A DNA stretch of 64,000 bases, from contig JABTUS010000005.1 in assembly GCA_015075305.1 (NCBI GenBank), positions 310,001 to 374,000 on the forward strand, written 5' to 3'. Made by a program: the position numbers and the translations under genes. Shown piece after piece: positions 20,370 through 27,462 of the stretch. How positions within the stretch are numbered: position 1 is the first letter of the stretch; each line of letters begins with the position of its first letter. Under the pieces are notes generated by a model that ran no database searches, was not told the DNA's origin, and saw only the letters and a program-made list of their open reading frames with translations. The DNA comes from Opitutaceae bacterium (GTDB lineage Bacteria; Verrucomicrobiota; Verrucomicrobiia; Opitutales; Opitutaceae).

Positions 20370-22616
20370 ATGAAACCCGAAACAATCATGCCTCCCTGTG
20401 TGATACAAGTCCGTGCCCTCGCTCTTGCGCTGGGACTGTTCTCCCTCTGCCCGCATCCCGCATCAGCGCAGGCCGCCAGGGAGAGTTCACGGGTTGCCCC
20501 CCCCTCTGCGCACAGGACCGATCTCGACGTCATTGCCGGCTGGGTGCAATTTCGGGCGGCGCCCGACGCACTGTATTTCCATCTCCACAATGAGGCGCTG
20601 GCGTTGCTGGCACAACGGGATCAGCAGGCGGCTGGACTCCACTCGGCAGAGGATTGGAAACGACAGCAGGAAAAGGTGCGGCATACGCTCGCTGAGATCG
20701 TGGGACCCTTTCCGGAACGCACCCCGCTCAATGCCCGGATACTGGGCACGGTCGAAAAGGCCGACTACCGGATGGAGAACATCGTCTTCGAATCGCAGCC
20801 GGGGTTCTACGTCACATCGGCGCTTTTCCTGCCCAGACACCTGTCCGGACCGGCACCAACCGTGCTTTATGCCAGTGGTCACTCGCCAAGCGGGTATCGG
20901 ACCGGGTACATGCGTACCATTCTCAATCTCGTCAAGAAGGGCTTCGTGGTCTTCGCCTGGGACCCCGTCTCCCAAGGCGAGCGCATGCAGTATCTGGACG
21001 ACACCGGCAAGCCGCGGGTGGGTGACAACAATCTCGAGCACGCCTACATCACCCAGCAGGCGATGCTCACGGGTTCATCGCTCGCCCGCTACGTCATCTG
21101 GGACGGCATTCGCGCAGTCGACTATCTCCTCACGCGTCCGGAAGTCGACCCGAAGCGTCTCGGCATGGCGGGGCGGTCGGGAGGCGGCTTCCAATCGCTC
21201 TACATTCCCGCATTCGACGAGCGGATCCTCGCGGCGGCGCCGGAAAACCATGTTTGCAACAACACGCGCATTCTCCAAAAAATCGGCCCCCGCGACGGCG
21301 AACAAAACCTGTTTCACATGTTCGCCCGTGGGATCGACCACCCGGACCTGCTGACCGCACGGGCGCCCAAACCGGCCCTGATCATCGCGACAGCAAATGA
21401 CCTCTTCAACATCGAGGGCACGCGCGAGACCTTTCGCGAGGTGAGCAGGGTCTATCGCGCCATGGGGGCGCCGGAGAACCTGAAACTCGTCGAGGACGAC
21501 GCCGGACATGAGCCCACAACCCGGAACAGCGAGGCCATGTATGCGTTTTTCCAGGCGCAGCTCAACAATCCGGGCTCATCCAAGATCGAAGCGGTGGAAC
21601 TGCCGACCCAGGACGAGCTGCGCGTGACCCCCACCGGACAAGTCCGCACTTCGTTGAAGGGTGAAACAGTTTCGAGTCTGACGCGGCGCGAGGCCGATCA
21701 ACTCGTCACCCAGCGTCAGGACGGAATCTCCGCGTCAGGCTTCAAGCCGGCAAACGTGGTGGAGGCGGCCAGACAAATGAGCGGCTACCGACCGCCCAAT
21801 TCCGCGGATCGGCCCGTGCTGACAGGCCGCGGCCACCGCGAGGGATGCGTGATCGAGCGCTATTTCGTCATGGGCGAGGGCGACTATCCCATTCCCTACG
21901 TTGCGATGCTGCCCGAACACCCCAATGGACGCGCGGTGCTCTACCTTCACCCGCAGGGCAAGGCGGCCGATGGCGGCAAGGGCGGGGAAATGGAGCGGCT
22001 TGTCCGACTGGGCTACAAGGTGCTTGCACCCGATCTGGTTGGAACCGGAGAGGTCGGTCCCGGGATTTCCGCCGGAGGAAGGTACCCCGGTCATCCGGCG
22101 AATTCCGGTGTCAACTACAAGACCTGGTATCTGGGAATGTTCATCGGCCGCAGCGTGCTGGCTGTTCGCGCCGCGGATGTCGTGAAGCTGGCCGCCATCC
22201 TGAAGGCCGAAGGCAGCTCAGACGTGTCAGCCGTGGCCTACGGCACGATGGGCCCGCTGCTGCTCCATGCAGCCGCGTTCAGCCCGGATATTTCCCGCGT
22301 GGCGCTGATCGATTCCCTGAGTTCCTACCATTCTGCGGCCGCCACGGAGTACTATGCGCCCCGGTTCATAGAGACCTTCGTGCCCGGCGTCCTGCGGTCC
22401 TACGATCTTCCCCTGCTCGCGGCGGCCCTCGCGCCCCGGCGAATCATTTTGCACAACACGGTGGATGGCGGCGGCAGGCTTCTGCCTGTGGAAAGCGTGA
22501 AGCGCGAGTACGCCCTGGCCTTTGCCGCCTTCGGCTCCGCGAAATCCGAAAACAACCTCGTGGTGGGCGCGGGCGAGGACTTGAAGGCACCGATGACCCG
22601 GCTGTTGAATGATTGA
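20370..22616 (+). CDS. Secreted double alpha/beta-hydrolase (acetylxylan-esterase-like)
   Basis: A 748-residue exported protein: signal peptide (CVIQVRALALALGLFSLCP, cleaved after ASAQA), then an alpha/beta-hydrolase of the acetyl-esterase/dipeptidyl-peptidase-like class (about 60-430). Ser270 lies in MAGRSGGGFQS, the acid is in ALIIATANDLFN, and the His is in DDAGHEPTTRN. A second region (about 470-745) repeats the fold in degenerate form (RAVLYLHPQGKAADGGKGGEMERLVRLGYKVLAPDLVG) but lacks a clear GxSxG (VAYGTMGPLL). It probably removes ester groups from polysaccharide outside the cytoplasm. The open frame continues far upstream, overlapping the kinase gene; the start at 20370 or 20388 gives the signal peptide. 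The sulfatase starts 10 nt after its stop. Confidence 0.82.
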   Translation: MKPETIMPPCVIQVRALALALGLFSLCPHPASAQAARESSRVAPPSAHRTDLDVIAGWVQFRAAPDALYFHLHNEALALLAQRDQQAAGLHSAEDWKRQQEKVRHTLAEIVGPFPERTPLNARILGTVEKADYRMENIVFESQPGFYVTSALFLPRHLSGPAPTVLYASGHSPSGYRTGYMRTILNLVKKGFVVFAWDPVSQGERMQYLDDTGKPRVGDNNLEHAYITQQAMLTGSSLARYVIWDGIRAVDYLLTRPEVDPKRLGMAGRSGGGFQSLYIPAFDERILAAAPENHVCNNTRILQKIGPRDGEQNLFHMFARGIDHPDLLTARAPKPALIIATANDLFNIEGTRETFREVSRVYRAMGAPENLKLVEDDAGHEPTTRNSEAMYAFFQAQLNNPGSSKIEAVELPTQDELRVTPTGQVRTSLKGETVSSLTRREADQLVTQRQDGISASGFKPANVVEAARQMSGYRPPNSADRPVLTGRGHREGCVIERYFVMGEGDYPIPYVAMLPEHPNGRAVLYLHPQGKAADGGKGGEMERLVRLGYKVLAPDLVGTGEVGPGISAGGRYPGHPANSGVNYKTWYLGMFIGRSVLAVRAADVVKLAAILKAEGSSDVSAVAYGTMGPLLLHAAAFSPDISRVALIDSLSSYHSAAATEYYAPRFIETFVPGVLRSYDLPLLAAALAPRRIILHNTVDGGGRLLPVESVKREYALAFAAFGSAKSENNLVVGAGEDLKAPMTRLLND

Positions 22617-22626
22617 AGGAACCACA

Positions 22627-24036
22627 ATGATGCAATCTCCACGTCTCTCATTTCTTGCCCTTGCCCTCAGCACGATGCTGGGCACGGCGGCGGGCGACAC
22701 AAAGCCGGTCAATATTCTCTTCATCCTGGCGGATGACCTGGGCACGGCGCCGGTCAGCGCCTACGGTGGCGACTACTACCACACGCCGGCCATTGATTCA
22801 CTGGCAAGCGACGGTCTGAAGTTCACCGACGCCTATGCGGCGTGTCCGGTGTGCTCGCCGACACGCGCCTCGCTGATGACCGGCCAGTATCCCGCGCGCA
22901 CTCACATCACGGATTTCATTCCGGGAGGGTCGTTCCCCCTGGCGCGCCTCACGCAGCCAGACTGGCAGAAGTTTCTGCCGCTCTCCGCCACGACGATTGC
23001 CGAGGTCCTTGCGCAACGCGGCTACGTGACGGCGTTGTTCGGGAAGTGGCACCTTGCCCGCGGATATTTTCCACCTGAAAGCGTGGCCGAGGGGCCGGAT
23101 CGCCAGGGTTTCGCCGAGACCTACATCACGCAGAAACCCAAGAAAGGCGACGATCCCGAGGCGGATGCGCACAAGGTCGGGTCGATCACCTCGCATGCGC
23201 TGGACTTTCTCACGCGCCACCGGGACGAGCCGTTTTTCCTGGAGCTGTCCTACAATTCCATTCACTCGCCGATCATGGCGCCGCGTGCGCTCGTCGAAAA
23301 ACACCAAAAGCGTGCGGGGTCGGACCAGCCTCAGAACAATCCGGTCATCGCCGCGATGATGGAGGAACTCGACAATTCGATCGCACGGGTGCTTTCGCAC
23401 CTCGATGCGCTCGGACTGCGGGATCGCACGGTTGTGATCTTCTACGGCGACAACGGCGGGCTGCTGGCCGACGCCGCGCAGACACCCTGGCGCGGTGGCA
23501 AGGCGCGGTTGTATGAAGGAGGGATTCGCGTTCCGCTGCTCGTGCGCTGGCCGGGAGTCATTGCTCCGGGCCGGATCAGCGCCACGCCGGTGACGACGGT
23601 TGATTTTTTCCCCACATTCCTCGAACTCGCCGGAGCGCCGGCGCCACGCGGCGTGCCGCTGGACGGCGTCAGCCTGGCGGGACTCTGGCGGGGGAGCCCG
23701 GCACCCGCTCGCGAGGCGATCTTCTGGCACTACCCACACTATCACGCCGCGGGATCCGGCGGCCCAGCCGGAGCAGTGCGGTCGGGCGATTGGAAATTGA
23801 TTGAGTACTACGAATACACCCTGGCACACACCGGCCGGGCTCCCGAATTGTACAACCTGCGATACGACCCCGGTGAAACGCAGAATCTCGCCGCGCAGGA
23901 ATCCGCCCGGGCAACCACCCTGCTCGCGCTGCTCGCGGCCCATCGCACAGCCACGGGCGCACAGATGCCAACCGTGAACCCCGCCTATGATCCGCCGAGG
24001 ACCAAGGCACCAACCGCCAGGGCTGTCGAGCATTGA
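22627..24036 (+). CDS. Arylsulfatase-type sulfatase (S1 family)
   Basis: A 469-residue exported sulfatase. A short signal peptide ends near AAGDT; metal-binding residues lie in ILADDLGTAPVSAYGG (about residues 34-48); Cys76 in CSPTRASLMTG is the residue converted to formylglycine by the maturation enzyme. GKWHLA and a metal-binding FYGDNGG are present. Organic sulfate esters, such as those on algal or host polysaccharides, are the likely substrates. The ATG at 22627 has GAAGGAA a few nt upstream; an ATG at 22609 inside the hydrolase gene is less likely. It follows the esterase by 10 nt, so both are probably one operon for modified glycans. Confidence 0.92.
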   Translation: MMQSPRLSFLALALSTMLGTAAGDTKPVNILFILADDLGTAPVSAYGGDYYHTPAIDSLASDGLKFTDAYAACPVCSPTRASLMTGQYPARTHITDFIPGGSFPLARLTQPDWQKFLPLSATTIAEVLAQRGYVTALFGKWHLARGYFPPESVAEGPDRQGFAETYITQKPKKGDDPEADAHKVGSITSHALDFLTRHRDEPFFLELSYNSIHSPIMAPRALVEKHQKRAGSDQPQNNPVIAAMMEELDNSIARVLSHLDALGLRDRTVVIFYGDNGGLLADAAQTPWRGGKARLYEGGIRVPLLVRWPGVIAPGRISATPVTTVDFFPTFLELAGAPAPRGVPLDGVSLAGLWRGSPAPAREAIFWHYPHYHAAGSGGPAGAVRSGDWKLIEYYEYTLAHTGRAPELYNLRYDPGETQNLAAQESARATTLLALLAAHRTATGAQMPTVNPAYDPPRTKAPTARAVEH

Positions 24037-24194
24037 GACACAGGCACAAGGCAACCTGAACGGCCCCTCTAATTGATTTGTTGCCGCGGTAATCCAATCC
24101 CCTTTATCCGCCGCTCATCCGTGCCGATGACAATCGGGCAAACGCAGACTTGACAATCCACACAACCCCCGGCACCTCCTTTCGTACAACGGCA

Positions 24195-24293
24195 ATGTCC
24201 CTCGCTCACTCGACGCACTTTACCAGCCTCCTCGCCCACGCCTCCGTGGTCGCCGTCGTGTCCGTTATTATCCGAGCACCGAGAGGGAGCTGA
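24195..24293 (+). CDS. Candidate Val/Ile leader peptide of an attenuator
   Basis: ATG at 24195, TGA at 24291-24293, 32 codons, too short for most gene callers. Residues 18-26 read VVAVVSVII: seven of nine codons are Val or Ile, as in the ilvL and ivbL leaders of enterobacteria. The peptide ends (RAPRGS) 17 nt before a strong intrinsic terminator. No strong ribosome binding site is visible ahead of the ATG, which weakens the case. The proposed role is to sense charged tRNA-Val and tRNA-Ile by ribosome stalling and so control the downstream aminotransferase. The inference rests on composition, position and RNA pairing, not on homology. Confidence 0.6.
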   Translation: MSLAHSTHFTSLLAHASVVAVVSVIIRAPRGS

Positions 24294-24347
24294 CGTCCAA
24301 CCTGACTTTCGCCCCCTTCGGTGTCTCACCGAAGGGGGCTTTTTTTT
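24246..24347 (+). promoter_or_regulatory. Candidate transcription attenuator (control codons, antiterminator, terminator)
   Basis: Val/Ile control codons occupy 24246-24272. The last leader codons, CACCGAGAGGG at 24277-24287, resemble the terminator's 3' arm (CACCGAAGGGG) and can pair with the 5' arm at 24311-24323: six Watson-Crick pairs, one G-U, one mismatch, three more pairs. A ribosome stalled early in the Val run leaves 24277-24287 free to capture the 5' arm and lets transcription continue. A ribosome that reaches the stop codon covers it, and the terminator forms. This is the classic logic of ilv/trp attenuators, read here directly from sequence complementarity. Confidence 0.6.
24311..24347 (+). 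terminator. Strong intrinsic terminator (attenuator terminator)
   Basis: Perfect 13-bp stem GCCCCCTTCGGTG / CACCGAAGGGGGC with a 3-nt TCT loop, followed by eight T residues (24340-24347). It stands 274 nt after the sulfatase stop and 58 nt before the next ORF, so it is better placed to attenuate the aminotransferase unit than to end the sulfatase operon. Confidence 0.9.
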
Positions 24348-24405
24348 GCCCCGACGGTGAACGACGAGGGGAGCGGCAACAAAAAAACACAACCGCCTCC
24401 CAACC

Positions 24406-24612
24406 ATGTATACGTTCCTCGGCCTTCCCAAGCCTCCCATTGATGACGACGAGACAGACGACGACAGTCGACAAATGAAGCGTCGCAGCGCCCGCCCGCT
24501 GCCATTCCTCGCCACCTGCGAAATCGCACAGAATCACGACCTGCTCGTGATGAACCTGCGCGAGGACCTCACCGACACATTCCAGGGAAACTTTGACATC
24601 GACTTCCCGTGA
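24406..24612 (+). CDS. Small acidic protein coupled to the aminotransferase
   Basis: A 68-residue ORF with strongly GC-rich third codon positions, as expected of a real gene here. An acidic stretch (PIDDDETDDDSRQ) is followed by a basic patch (MKRRSAR) and a C-terminal segment ending NLREDLTDTFQGNFDIDFP. I do not recognise a family. The stop codon overlaps the GTG start of the aminotransferase as GTGA (24609-24612), so its translation probably feeds that of the enzyme. No clear ribosome binding site precedes the ATG at 24406. It may be a partner or regulator of the aminotransferase, or simply a translational leader. Confidence 0.55.
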   Translation: MYTFLGLPKPPIDDDETDDDSRQMKRRSARPLPFLATCEIAQNHDLLVMNLREDLTDTFQGNFDIDFP

Positions 24613-25865
24613 ACACCTCCGTCACCGCCGCTCGATCCGCATCTCAATCCTCCGCATCCCCTGTCTTTCGTTATGCCACGCGGACGTCAGGCTTCAAGGC
24701 CAGTGCCATCCGGGAAATCCTGAGATACACGGAGTCGCCGGACTTCATCTCCTTCGCCGGCGGTTTGCCCGCCCCGGAGTTGTTCCCGGTGGAGGCCATC
24801 GCGCGCGCTTCCGCCACCGTGCTTGCGTCAGACGGGCCTGCGTCGCTCCAGTACGGCGCCACCGAGGGCTTCCTGCCGCTGCGCGAATGGGTCTGCCAGC
24901 ACCTTTCCGCGACGGCGGAACTGCACACCTCGCCGGACCAGGTGATCATGCTGCACGGATCCCAGCAGGGCCTCGATCTCATCGCGAAGGTGCTGCTCAA
25001 TCCGGGGGACACGGTTCTGACGGAGAATCCCGCCTACCTCGGCGCCCTTCAGGCCTTTCGCTCCTACGAGGCAAGGGTCGTGGGCCTCGACTCCGACCAG
25101 CATGGACTCCTGCCCGACGCGCTGGAGCATCATCTAAACGGAACAGCCGTCCTTCCAAAATTTCTGTATCTCAACCCAAATTTTCAGAATCCCACAGGCA
25201 CCTCCCTCACCCAGGAGCGTCGCAGCGCCATCGCGCAGATTGCCGCGCGTCACTCGGTGGCTGTCATTGAGGACGATCCCTACGGCGAACTGCGTTTTGC
25301 AGGCACTGCAATTCCAGCGCTGAGCGCGATTGAAGCGGGTCACGCGTGGATCTACCTGGGAACCTTCAGCAAGATTCTCGCTCCCGGTCTGCGCGTGGCC
25401 TGGATGGTCGCGCGCGATCGCATTTTCATGGATCGCGTCGTGACGGCTAAGCAGGCGACCGATCTCCACACCGCGGCCTTCAACCAGCGTGTCATCTGGG
25501 AAACTGTTCGCCACGCGGGCATGCTCGACAGACACGTCGGTCAACTGCGCGAGACTTACAGCCGGCGGCGGGCAGTGATGCTCTCAGCCCTTCGCCGTCA
25601 CTTCCCCACCGACTGCACCTGGACGCAGCCGGATGGAGGACTCTTCCTCTGGGTGACAACAGCGCCTGGTGTGGACACCCTCGACCTTCTCCAGCACGCA
25701 CTCGCCCAGAAGGTCGCCTTTGTTCCAGGAGCACCCTTCTGGGTTGACCGCGCAGTCAAAAACACGCTGCGCCTCAACTTCAGCAACGCCAGCGAGGAAC
25801 GGATCGATCAGGGAATAGCCCGCCTCGGCGCAGCCCTGGCGGCTGTTCCTGCCGCCGCAGCCTGA
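24609..25865 (+). CDS. PLP-dependent class I/II aminotransferase (LysN/2-aminoadipate type)
   Basis: A 418-residue fold-type I aminotransferase of the group related to the catalytic domain of MocR regulators and to LysN. Landmarks: the SPDFISFAGGLPAPELFP entry motif (about residues 41-58), LQYGATEGFLPLREW, the cofactor-binding VIEDDPYGELRF and the Schiff-base Lys in YLGTFSKILAPGLRVAWM. Enzymes of this group act on 2-aminoadipate, leucine, valine and aromatic amino acids. A role in branched-chain amino acid metabolism is suggested by the Val/Ile-type attenuator upstream (inference). The GTG start at 24609 overlaps the stop of the small ORF. Its operon appears to end before the convergent rhamnose isomerase gene. 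Confidence 0.9.
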   Translation: MNTSVTAARSASQSSASPVFRYATRTSGFKASAIREILRYTESPDFISFAGGLPAPELFPVEAIARASATVLASDGPASLQYGATEGFLPLREWVCQHLSATAELHTSPDQVIMLHGSQQGLDLIAKVLLNPGDTVLTENPAYLGALQAFRSYEARVVGLDSDQHGLLPDALEHHLNGTAVLPKFLYLNPNFQNPTGTSLTQERRSAIAQIAARHSVAVIEDDPYGELRFAGTAIPALSAIEAGHAWIYLGTFSKILAPGLRVAWMVARDRIFMDRVVTAKQATDLHTAAFNQRVIWETVRHAGMLDRHVGQLRETYSRRRAVMLSALRRHFPTDCTWTQPDGGLFLWVTTAPGVDTLDLLQHALAQKVAFVPGAPFWVDRAVKNTLRLNFSNASEERIDQGIARLGAALAAVPAAAA

Positions 25866-25947: not shown

Positions 25948-27156
25948 TCAGGCGAAGCCGCCCCCCGAAACCAGTCCGAGTTCGCGACGCCGCTTGGCGC
26001 GGTCCCGTCCGGCCTTGATTGCATAGCCGGATCTCCGGTGCTCGGCTATAGGATCGTTCGGCAGCCCCTTCTGTCTGCGCCAGACTTTCAAAGCAGGCGC
26101 GACATCGGTGAAAAACGCCCTTTTCAGCTCCAGCTCCGCAGCCACCACATCATGCGCCTCCTGCGCCTTGCGCAGCGCCTCGTGGTCAACGAGCGCGGCC
26201 TTCGCAAAAAGCTCCTGCGCCATCATCACGGTCTGCAGTGTGGCCTCGATCTTCGGCTTCTCGTTGTGACACTGGTCGATCATGTAGGCGATCTTCGGCG
26301 CCTTGCCACGCTCAACCGAGAAGCTGTGAATCTCGTGAAAGATGCGGAAAACCTGGTACGGATCGATCGATCCAAGCGTCAGATCATCGTCCGCGTAACG
26401 CCGGTCATTGAAGTGAAAGCCTCCAAGCATGTCTTCATCGAGCAGGAAGGCGACGATCTGCTCGATGTTCTGGCCGGAGTAATGGTGGCCGGTGTCCACG
26501 AGGACCTTCGCTCGCCGGCCGGCCTTTTTGGAGAGCACGTACGACATTCCCCAGTCAGCGATGTCGGTGGCGTAGAAGGCCGGCTCGAACGGCTTGTACT
26601 CAACCAGCATTGTCTGATTCGGCGCGAGCTTGCGATGCAGCGCCTTCAGCGCCGCCTCAAAGCGATGCTTGCGGTCGCGAATGCTCTCCTGCCCCGGATA
26701 GTTCGTGCCATCCGCAAACCACAGGGACAGGTACTCGCTGCCGACCGCCTTCCCGATCGCAATCGAGTCATAACAATGCTGGAGCGCGCGTTCGCGCACC
26801 GCCGCATCCGAGTTTCCAAACGACCCCCACTTGTATTCCTGGTCCTGGAAGAGATTCGGATTGATCGCTCCAATCCTCACGCCATGCCGCTCGGCCAGTT
26901 TTGCCACCGCCTTCGGATCCTCGCCGGGTTTGAAGTCCCACAGCACGTGCACGGCCACCGTGGGGCAGCATCCCGTTAGCGCATGGACGTGACCGCTGTC
27001 GGCCAGCTTGTCCGCCAGGTCGATCGCCGCGGCATCCTGAAGGAATTTTCCAAAACGCGTTCCGGTGTCAGCGAAGCCCCAGGAAGGCACCTCGACATTG
27101 AAGTTGTTGAGTATTGGCAGGAGGCGGGAGACGAGTGCGGAATTGGCTGCAGCCAT
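25948..27156 (-). CDS. rhaI: L-rhamnose isomerase, RhaI type
   Basis: A 402-residue TIM-barrel sugar isomerase of the RhaI (Rhizobium/Pseudomonas) type, converting L-rhamnose to L-rhamnulose. Motifs: FNVEVPSWGFADTGTRFG near the N terminus, LWFADGTNYPGQ, VEYKPFEPAFYATD (Glu metal ligand), VDTGHHYSGQNIEQIV (Asp and His ligands) and GGFHFNDRRYADDDL (His/Asp ligands). The C-terminal tail AGRDRAKRRRELG is also typical. The ATG at 27156 is preferred to 27213 because family homology begins there. It is divergent from the heme dehydrogenase gene across a 306-nt region. With the PL26 lyase and LacI regulator at 36-40 kb it indicates rhamnose-containing polysaccharide use. Confidence 0.9.
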   Translation of the reverse strand: MAAANSALVSRLLPILNNFNVEVPSWGFADTGTRFGKFLQDAAAIDLADKLADSGHVHALTGCCPTVAVHVLWDFKPGEDPKAVAKLAERHGVRIGAINPNLFQDQEYKWGSFGNSDAAVRERALQHCYDSIAIGKAVGSEYLSLWFADGTNYPGQESIRDRKHRFEAALKALHRKLAPNQTMLVEYKPFEPAFYATDIADWGMSYVLSKKAGRRAKVLVDTGHHYSGQNIEQIVAFLLDEDMLGGFHFNDRRYADDDLTLGSIDPYQVFRIFHEIHSFSVERGKAPKIAYMIDQCHNEKPKIEATLQTVMMAQELFAKAALVDHEALRKAQEAHDVVAAELELKRAFFTDVAPALKVWRRQKGLPNDPIAEHRRSGYAIKAGRDRAKRRRELGLVSGGGFA

Positions 27157-27462
27157 GGCGTTGTCAGGAAAAGAAAAGAAGCATTTTTTGATGTCTCCGC
27201 ACCTGCGGGACATCGAATTTCAAGTATTCGCCGCGCCATCCAAAATGGCAAGGCCTTCAGTAACCTCGCCCGTTCCAAAATCGTCTTTCATGCGTCGAAC
27301 AAAAAATTTTCAAAGCGCGATGCGTTCGCCTGTTCGCATGCGTCGCGCTCTCGCAGATTTGCAAACCCTCAGCTTGTAAGCAACGGTGCACCTTTTCGCT
27401 TTGGAAGGCGTTCCCACTTCCGTCACGCTTCAATCTTCTGCCCCGTCGCGGTACTCCGCCAG
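27157..27462. other. Divergent intergenic region with a dyad
   Basis: No gene is seen in these 306 nt between rhaI (minus) and the heme dehydrogenase (plus). A dyad, CCGCA-CC-TGCGG flanked by GTC and GAC, lies at 27193-27211, 37 nt from the rhaI start, and could bind a regulator. The dehydrogenase open frame extends through the region and into rhaI, but no signal peptide or family homology begins there. Confidence 0.4.

Follow-up and report, generated by a model that had tools for sequence, protein, structure and literature searches.

A predicted valine leader-peptide attenuator precedes a small protein or acetolactate synthase genes in the Opitutaceae

Results

Organization of the locus

The window, by which we mean the whole 64,000-nt stretch of Opitutaceae DNA that was analysed, lies within contig C5 of a 4.87-Mb genome. 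The unit described here consists of a short Val-rich ORF, an intrinsic terminator, a small ORF, and an aminotransferase gene, and it is flanked upstream by a sulfatase gene. Its features, in window coordinates, are as follows.

22609-24036, + strand: sulfatase (PF00884)
24150-24155, + strand: TTGACA box, candidate -35 element, read from the sequence, 45 nt upstream of the leader ATG
24195-24293, + strand: putative valine leader peptide ORF, MSLAHSTHFTSLLAHASVVAVVSVIIRAPRGS; ATG at 24195, 32 codons, TGA at 24291-24293
24246-24272, + strand: putative control codons, VVAVVSVII, residues 18 to 26, read from the sequence
24277-24287, + strand: predicted antiterminator strand, CACCGAGAGGG, able to pair, apart from one bulged base, with the 5′ arm of the terminator
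24311-24323, + strand: terminator 5′ arm, common to the antiterminator (terminator scan and pairing in seven leaders)
24327-24339, + strand: terminator 3′ arm (terminator scan and pairing in seven leaders)
24340-24347, + strand: T8 tract of the intrinsic terminator (sequence and terminator scan)
24406-24612, + strand: small protein, 68 aa, with a HDLLVMNLREDLTD core (HD[FL]LVLNxxPDL-like family; ORF translation)
24609-25865, + strand: PLP-dependent aminotransferase, class I/II, MocR-like, 418 aa (Pfam PF00155, E = 8e-35)
25948-27213, convergent with the aminotransferase: L-rhamnose isomerase-like gene (TIGR02635, below cut-off)

A first-pass annotation, made from the letters alone, had proposed that a ribosome-mediated attenuator with Val/Ile control codons lies here ahead of the aminotransferase and the small protein. 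Its coordinates and sequence were right, base for base. Direct reading gives the 32-codon ORF with VVAVVSVII at residues 18 to 26 as claimed, and both direct reading and a terminator scan find the perfect 13-bp terminator with eight T residues: the stem at 24311-24339 has no mismatch, carries a TCT loop, and lies 17 nt after the stop codon. An intrinsic terminator is thus found where an attenuator has one, between the leader ORF and the structural gene. The small ORF starts 58 nt after the T-run, and the start of the aminotransferase gene overlaps its stop by 4 nt (GTGA). The NCBIfam matches listed for the aminotransferase were below their cut-offs.

The scan of 14 kb returned 9 sites, compared to 10.7 in shuffled sequence; therefore, a terminator match alone is uninformative. 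With 13 pairs, the 24311-24339 site stands apart from the other eight, none of which exceeds 9. When folded alone, 24258-24323 forms the predicted antiterminator at −20.4 kcal/mol (z = −2.1; 6 of 200 shuffles did equally well), which agrees with the pairing that had been proposed between 24277-24287 and the terminator 5′ arm. The fold of 24277-24345 is the terminator (−33, z = −3.7), so that with the 3′ arm present, the terminator wins.

Conservation of the leader, terminator, and predicted antiterminator

We searched for the aminotransferase in 57 genomes, and 8 of them, including the source genome, hold a copy with 54% identity or more. One of these copies (L007) stops at a contig edge. The remaining seven genomes, with readable upstream DNA, all keep the arrangement (L001 and L008 to L013), which indicates that the feature is more than chance. 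Indeed, the leader ORF is kept in 7/7 (own genome included), Val-rich and 30 to 34 codons long, with the majority peptide SVVAxxVVSVxRAPRGx. Gaps within the ORF in the seven-leader alignment are multiples of three, and the Val runs differ in number while the frame is retained. Upstream of more distant aminotransferases, 37 to 48% identical (L014 to L020), no terminator was found by search and no such leader by eye. In L013 (G002:C125:13598-14752), the aminotransferase match has internal stops (4 TGA and 2 TAG), and the leader and small ORF are open; this copy may be broken (a pseudogene) or badly assembled.

Among the seven leaders, the arms of the GC-rich terminator pair in 98.8% of 83 cells, and two pairs are changed on both sides. 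The ORF ends in CRCCG-n-RAGGG-like bases, which form standard pairs with the 5′ arm in 70/70 cells, compared to 49 to 61% for slid versions of the antiterminator. Covariation of the antiterminator was not above chance in these seven sequences; since 283 of 500 shuffles reach the same score, covariation by itself is not evidence for this pairing. The alignment of relatives that the first-pass annotation had called for returned the Val codons, the terminator, and the pairing in 7/7, but neither the covariation nor a consistent Ile, which is absent from the control region of L012.

We then built a covariance model (R1) from the seven close-relative leaders and ran it over 250 genomes of the family. 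At E ≤ 0.1, 178 of the 250 genomes match, and by hand count 137 match at E ≤ 1e-7, at full length except for one at a contig edge; 7 of these 137 are the training genomes. The other 113, under these strict filters, have no R1 match at E ≤ 1e-7, so the leader is not universal in the family. The source genome has one real copy. From the listed matches we fetched 90 loci, the top 30 and 60 more that were picked to cover many genera and to include second copies, and found a Val-rich ORF in the same place in 88. Of the other two, L125 was judged spurious and L122 had no leader ORF under our rule. The parsed loci are often from the same genus, and the counts below are of loci, not of independent events.

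All 88 leaders are followed by a hairpin of 8 to 14 bp that has no more than one mismatch and runs into four or more T residues (weak in L121). The predicted antiterminator could also be followed through this set. Its mean pairing energy to the 5′ arm is −17.1, versus −11.4 for shuffled leader segments. Locus by locus, only 36 of the 88 leaders beat all but at most one of 50 segment shuffles; 9/88 pair more weakly than −12 kcal/mol, L121 and L130 being the weakest. In 72/88, the pairing strand stops 1 to 6 nt short of the last base of the stop codon. A ribosome at the stop codon would thus be placed to mask the antiterminator, which itself excludes the terminator.

The repeated codons of a regulatory amino acid that an attenuator needs are present in the predicted leader ORF as Val codons. 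Each of the 62 leaders ahead of the small ORF has at least 4 Val codons (median, 7), as does each of the 20 ahead of acetolactate synthase genes (median, 7.5). In the 62 leaders, GTA and GTT make up 131 of 427 Val codons, versus 21 of 163 in five aminotransferase genes. Val accounts for 20 to 24% of leader residues and Ile for 3 to 4%. Because of this difference and the lack of control-region Ile in L012, the predicted control amino acid is valine; the Val half of the Val/Ile control proposed initially stood, but the Ile half did not.

The last codons of the leader gave stronger evidence for the antiterminator than covariation did. The peptide motif PRG is present in 61 of 88 leaders, and its Arg codon there is CGA in 37, AGA in 16, CGG in 8, and CGC or CGT in none. 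Five aminotransferase genes use CGC or CGT for 118 of 145 Arg codons, with 27/145 outside this pair; the contrast with the leaders has a Fisher p of 2e-31, from rows that are not independent. In addition, five leaders, all ahead of ilvB, read the element in another frame, as RREG, RQEG, or RAEG (L111, L114, and L118 to L120), and in L126 and L127 a stop codon falls inside it (CACCGTGAGGG). L130, of the same group as the latter two, lacks GAGGG after CACCG. We did not count L089, L095, L105, and L110 as frame changes, the shift there being one of the pattern and not of the frame. Arg codon choice and frame changes together argue that the putative antiterminator element is held at the RNA level.

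Start of transcription and translation

TTGACA lies 43 to 46 nt before the ATG in 7/7 close relatives, and a TTGAC, TGGAC, or CTCGAC box lies 36 to 51 nt before the start in 86/88 leaders, most often at 41 nt (32/88); the 86/88 figure has no control, as the pattern was chosen after looking and the match nearest to 44 nt was kept. A promoter scan predicted no site on the + strand at the leader, and there is no clear -10 element. An SD-like tetramer 3 to 18 nt before the start, which would mark the ribosome binding site of an attenuator ORF, occurs in just 2/88 leaders; before the small ORF it occurs in just 2/62. The first-pass annotation had named the missing ribosome binding site as its main weakness; the absence is real, and it is common to the whole set.

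A TTGAC-like box followed by an 18-nt spacer would place the transcription start about 10 bases or less from the ATG. The absent ribosome binding site and a box about 41 nt upstream fit a near-leaderless transcript, and we infer that translation begins from such an end. Leaderless attenuator ORFs are cited for mycobacteria in passages of PMC9094748, so we do not treat a ribosome binding site as strictly defining for an attenuator.

Genes downstream of the leaders

We classed the downstream genes by BLAST clusters and scanned one protein of each kind against NCBIfam. The 88 leaders precede the small protein at 62 loci, acetolactate synthase genes at 20, and an MFS-like transporter gene at 4; two end at contig edges. 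At the 20 acetolactate synthase loci, the downstream gene belongs to the valine pathway: 19 have ilvB, and at one just ilvN was seen (L122, without a parsed leader, is a further ilvB). The large subunit tested scored over the TIGR00118 cut-off and had its best match in PRK08155, below that family's cut-off; the small subunit tested matched PRK08178 best, also below cut-off. Finding the same leader ahead of acetolactate synthase genes (20/88) ties its Val codons to the valine pathway. In the source genome, a single ilvB passes E ≤ 1e-100, and it shares 43% identity with the leader-borne kind. No Val-rich leader was found upstream of this gene and of five other ilvB genes of the second type, 6 of the 14 listed places.

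The four MFS-like genes behind Val leaders are at L121, L126, L127, and L130, and the NCBIfam match of this kind was below cut-offs. The gene is a candidate transporter of valine or branched-chain amino acids.

Of the 90 fetched loci, 17 have a gene of the aminotransferase cluster. We considered it as the primary target and rejected this, as three genomes of the same genus (G003, G004, and G006) and loci in other genera have the leader and small ORF with no such gene behind them. We also rejected the idea that it replaces the usual branched-chain enzyme: fold-IV aminotransferase matches are present in 18/18 genomes, with or without it (the match in G001 is partial). The gene order claimed initially, a leader ahead of the aminotransferase and the small protein, was therefore right as to position, but the aminotransferase is not the constant target. 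With the small ORF behind 62/88 leaders and the aminotransferase at 17/90 loci, the predicted constant target of the leader is the small protein.

Eleven further loci of the family added seven small ORFs (L177, L178, L181 to L183, L186, and L187) and four ilvB-like genes (L176, L179, L180, and L185). For the rest of the class, we made a second model (R2) from 69 leaders and ran it over 384 genomes. It matched 30 genomes at E ≤ 1e-6, 22 within the family and 8 beyond it. Five of the latter, from other families of the class, have Val/Leu leaders ahead of ilvB-like genes (L168 to L172, judged from the first residues). In another family of the order, a Val leader is followed by a small HDFLVVNPRPDL protein (L175). 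L174 (G443:C20), from another family of the class, has a Leu-rich leader, RLSLNALLLSR, read from TTG, with a terminator ahead of leuA (2-isopropylmalate synthase; PRK03739, 818.7 bits, over cut-off), which suggests that predicted leader-peptide attenuators for other amino acids exist in the class. L173, a candidate leader outside the family, looked spurious and was not counted. Within the family, L176 also has a Val/Leu leader ahead of its ilvB-like gene. L168 to L170, L172, and L176 carry a CCCGCCGG-type terminator, which is of another sequence.

The small protein

Across the 62 loci, the small ORF encodes 59 to 90 aa and starts 47 to 92 nt past the hairpin. At 61/62 loci, an ORF of fitting size and position contains the motif [HNTY]D[FLM]L; among controls it was found in 0/62 in each of five shuffles, 0/62 in an unrelated stretch, and 0/61 further downstream. 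Beyond the motif, H is present in 55/61, the next residue is V in 33, 49 have P at +9, and 41 have L at +11; the invariant D and L of the core were built into the search motif and are not evidence. The core D is encoded by GAT in 31 and by GAC in 30. Since the codons of the core vary, it is the protein and not the DNA that is kept. L178 has ADFLVTNLRPDL in place of HDFL in its small ORF.

A profile of 18 rows of the small protein, run over 38 genomes, gave 12 matches, 10 of them with E < 1e-4. All 10 lie directly behind a leader match, and five of them are rows of the profile; the other two (E = 0.013 and 0.018) are probably chance. The members tested had no relative in Pfam, NCBIfam, PHROGs, or PDB sequences. 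A fold from AlphaFold2 with a three-row alignment was set aside (mean pLDDT, 56; pTM, 0.13).

By a GC3-based call, the gene after the small ORF is convergent within 250 nt at 24/62 loci, on the same strand at 30, and convergent further off at 2; at 6 the call was left unresolved. The convergent call at L050 is probably a misread aminotransferase. With a convergent neighbour this close, the unit appears to consist of the leader and small ORF alone at about 23 loci. At L046, L053 to L057, L060, L063, and L064, the small ORF is followed, in the same orientation, by a member of one BLAST cluster; the member tested, at L046, resembles YchJ/SEC-C motif proteins, below cut-offs.

In the window, a GC-rich hairpin with an A-rich loop (GGGAGCGG...CCGCCTCCC) lies before the start of the small ORF, within 24348-24405. 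Across the 62 loci, we rejected the idea that the stretch from the T-run to the small ORF contains a further conserved hairpin (mean z, −0.4, with 18/62 below −1).

Discussion

The sequence comparisons strongly support the central claim of the first-pass annotation, a ribosome-mediated leader-peptide attenuator with an antiterminator overlapping the end of the ORF, through its conservation in the family. We conclude that the leader is very probably a valine-responsive transcription attenuator. RNA polymerase would start close to the leader ATG, and a ribosome would begin on the near-leaderless end. With ample Val-tRNA, the ribosome would run to the stop codon and cover CACCGAGAGGG; the terminator arms would then pair, and transcription would end at the T-run. 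When Val-tRNA is scarce, the ribosome would stall at residues 18 to 24 and leave CACCGAGAGGG free to pair with the terminator 5′ arm, with read-through into the small protein. In this lineage, the overlapping aminotransferase gene would be reached as well, and leaders of this kind in relatives would act on ilvBN, the small protein alone, or the MFS-like transporter.

Three other explanations have to be weighed. The leader ORF could govern translation of the small ORF, or access of Rho, with the hairpin just helping. We regard this as very unlikely. In its favour, the small ORF mostly lacks an SD sequence (2/62 have one), and hairpins are predicted directly before its ATG at many loci, but these are barely above shuffles (mean z, −0.4; 18/62 below −1), and 88/88 leaders are followed by an 8- to 14-bp hairpin with at least four T residues, weak in L121. 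It is very unlikely that the hairpin is a plain, unregulated terminator that ends some unrelated transcript, and that a separate promoter past the T-run serves the small ORF and aminotransferase. Such a reading would account for the lack of a predicted promoter at the leader, but not for the joint presence of leader, terminator, and small ORF at 62/88 loci and in a separate family (L175), the occurrence of the same leader ahead of ilvBN, or a pairing element in the ORF kept against normal Arg codon use. A regulatory RNA that binds a ligand or a tRNA, such as a riboswitch or T-box, with an incidental short ORF is likewise very unlikely: a conserved leader with a terminator at its end looks the part, and ppGpp riboswitches can control ilvB genes elsewhere (PMC10272879), but no Rfam family reached the gathering score in eight loci, the window leader had 5 Rfam matches at E ≤ 5, all below gathering, the ORF region 24195-24310 folds no better than chance (z = 0.37), and the ORF has gaps in multiples of three and Val runs that vary in number yet keep frame.

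Read as a valine attenuator, the leader has a well-known counterpart. E. coli ivbL-ilvBN has a 32-codon leader that includes Val and Leu codons, then a terminator, with ilvBN downstream (sections of PMC11187965). Relatives of the window leader likewise precede ilvBN, with best NCBIfam matches PRK08155 and PRK08178, and by anatomy and by these relatives the predicted attenuator is of the ivbL kind. Unlike ivbL-ilvBN, the family described here also has a small protein, an aminotransferase, or an MFS-like gene downstream; it has no SD sequence, it carries its antiterminator strand in the last codons of the leader, and it belongs to a different phylum.

Other systems are similar in part. The Corynebacterium ilvB-II uORF and the ilvB-OMG and Leptospira ilvB motifs share a uORF rich in branched-chain amino acids, with predicted attenuation, and in the abstract and section 14 of PMC10272879 they are described with ilvB. 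The ilvB-OMG motif, with 41 representatives from various phyla, may overlap the ilvB leaders found here; the same text contains no mention of Opitutaceae. Actinobacterial ilvB leader peptides are likewise short ORFs with Ile/Val/Leu runs and terminators ahead of ilvB, but in them the terminator overlaps the ORF, and altering the codons reportedly made no difference in Streptomyces (parts of PMC1262725). The mycobacterial polycysteine uORFs of Canestrari et al. (2020) are the parallel for a leaderless ORF in an amino acid-responsive attenuator (as cited in passages of PMC9094748), but theirs sense cysteine. For the mycobacterial cys operons, the relevant part of PMC1262725 states that there are no conserved upstream hairpins or obvious terminators.

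A 2010 statement placed leader-peptide systems only in Proteobacteria and Actinobacteria, and the same paper adds Firmicutes (sections of PMC2965389). Its main text lacks Opitutus and Verrucomicrobi-, and the main texts of PMC8632094 and PMC11109978 lack Opitut- and Verrucomicrobi-. The passages of PMC11683593 that we checked concern erm(B). We found no report of a leader peptide or attenuator for Verrucomicrobiota, Opitutaceae, Opitutales, or Opitutus terrae in the open-access literature. As far as we have searched, then, the valine attenuator is unreported for the phylum, and the small protein is a new target and the commoner one among the loci read.

What might the small protein do? One tentative idea, which we hold to be possible but doubtful, is that it is an undescribed effector of valine starvation that works in trans on valine metabolism, the aminotransferase being a later recruit. 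If so, it would be made just on Val-tRNA shortage, often as the sole product of its transcription unit, and it might, for example, act on the other acetolactate synthase, itself without a leader. The predicted attenuator hints at when the small protein is made, namely at valine shortage, and an anonymous ORF thereby becomes a testable regulator or enzyme partner. The leader would also offer a natural example of a peptide whose last codons double as an antiterminator, kept at the RNA level against codon preference. For the Opitutaceae, these data point to one attenuator family in over half of the 250 genomes, whose target would be either the classic ilvBN or the small protein.
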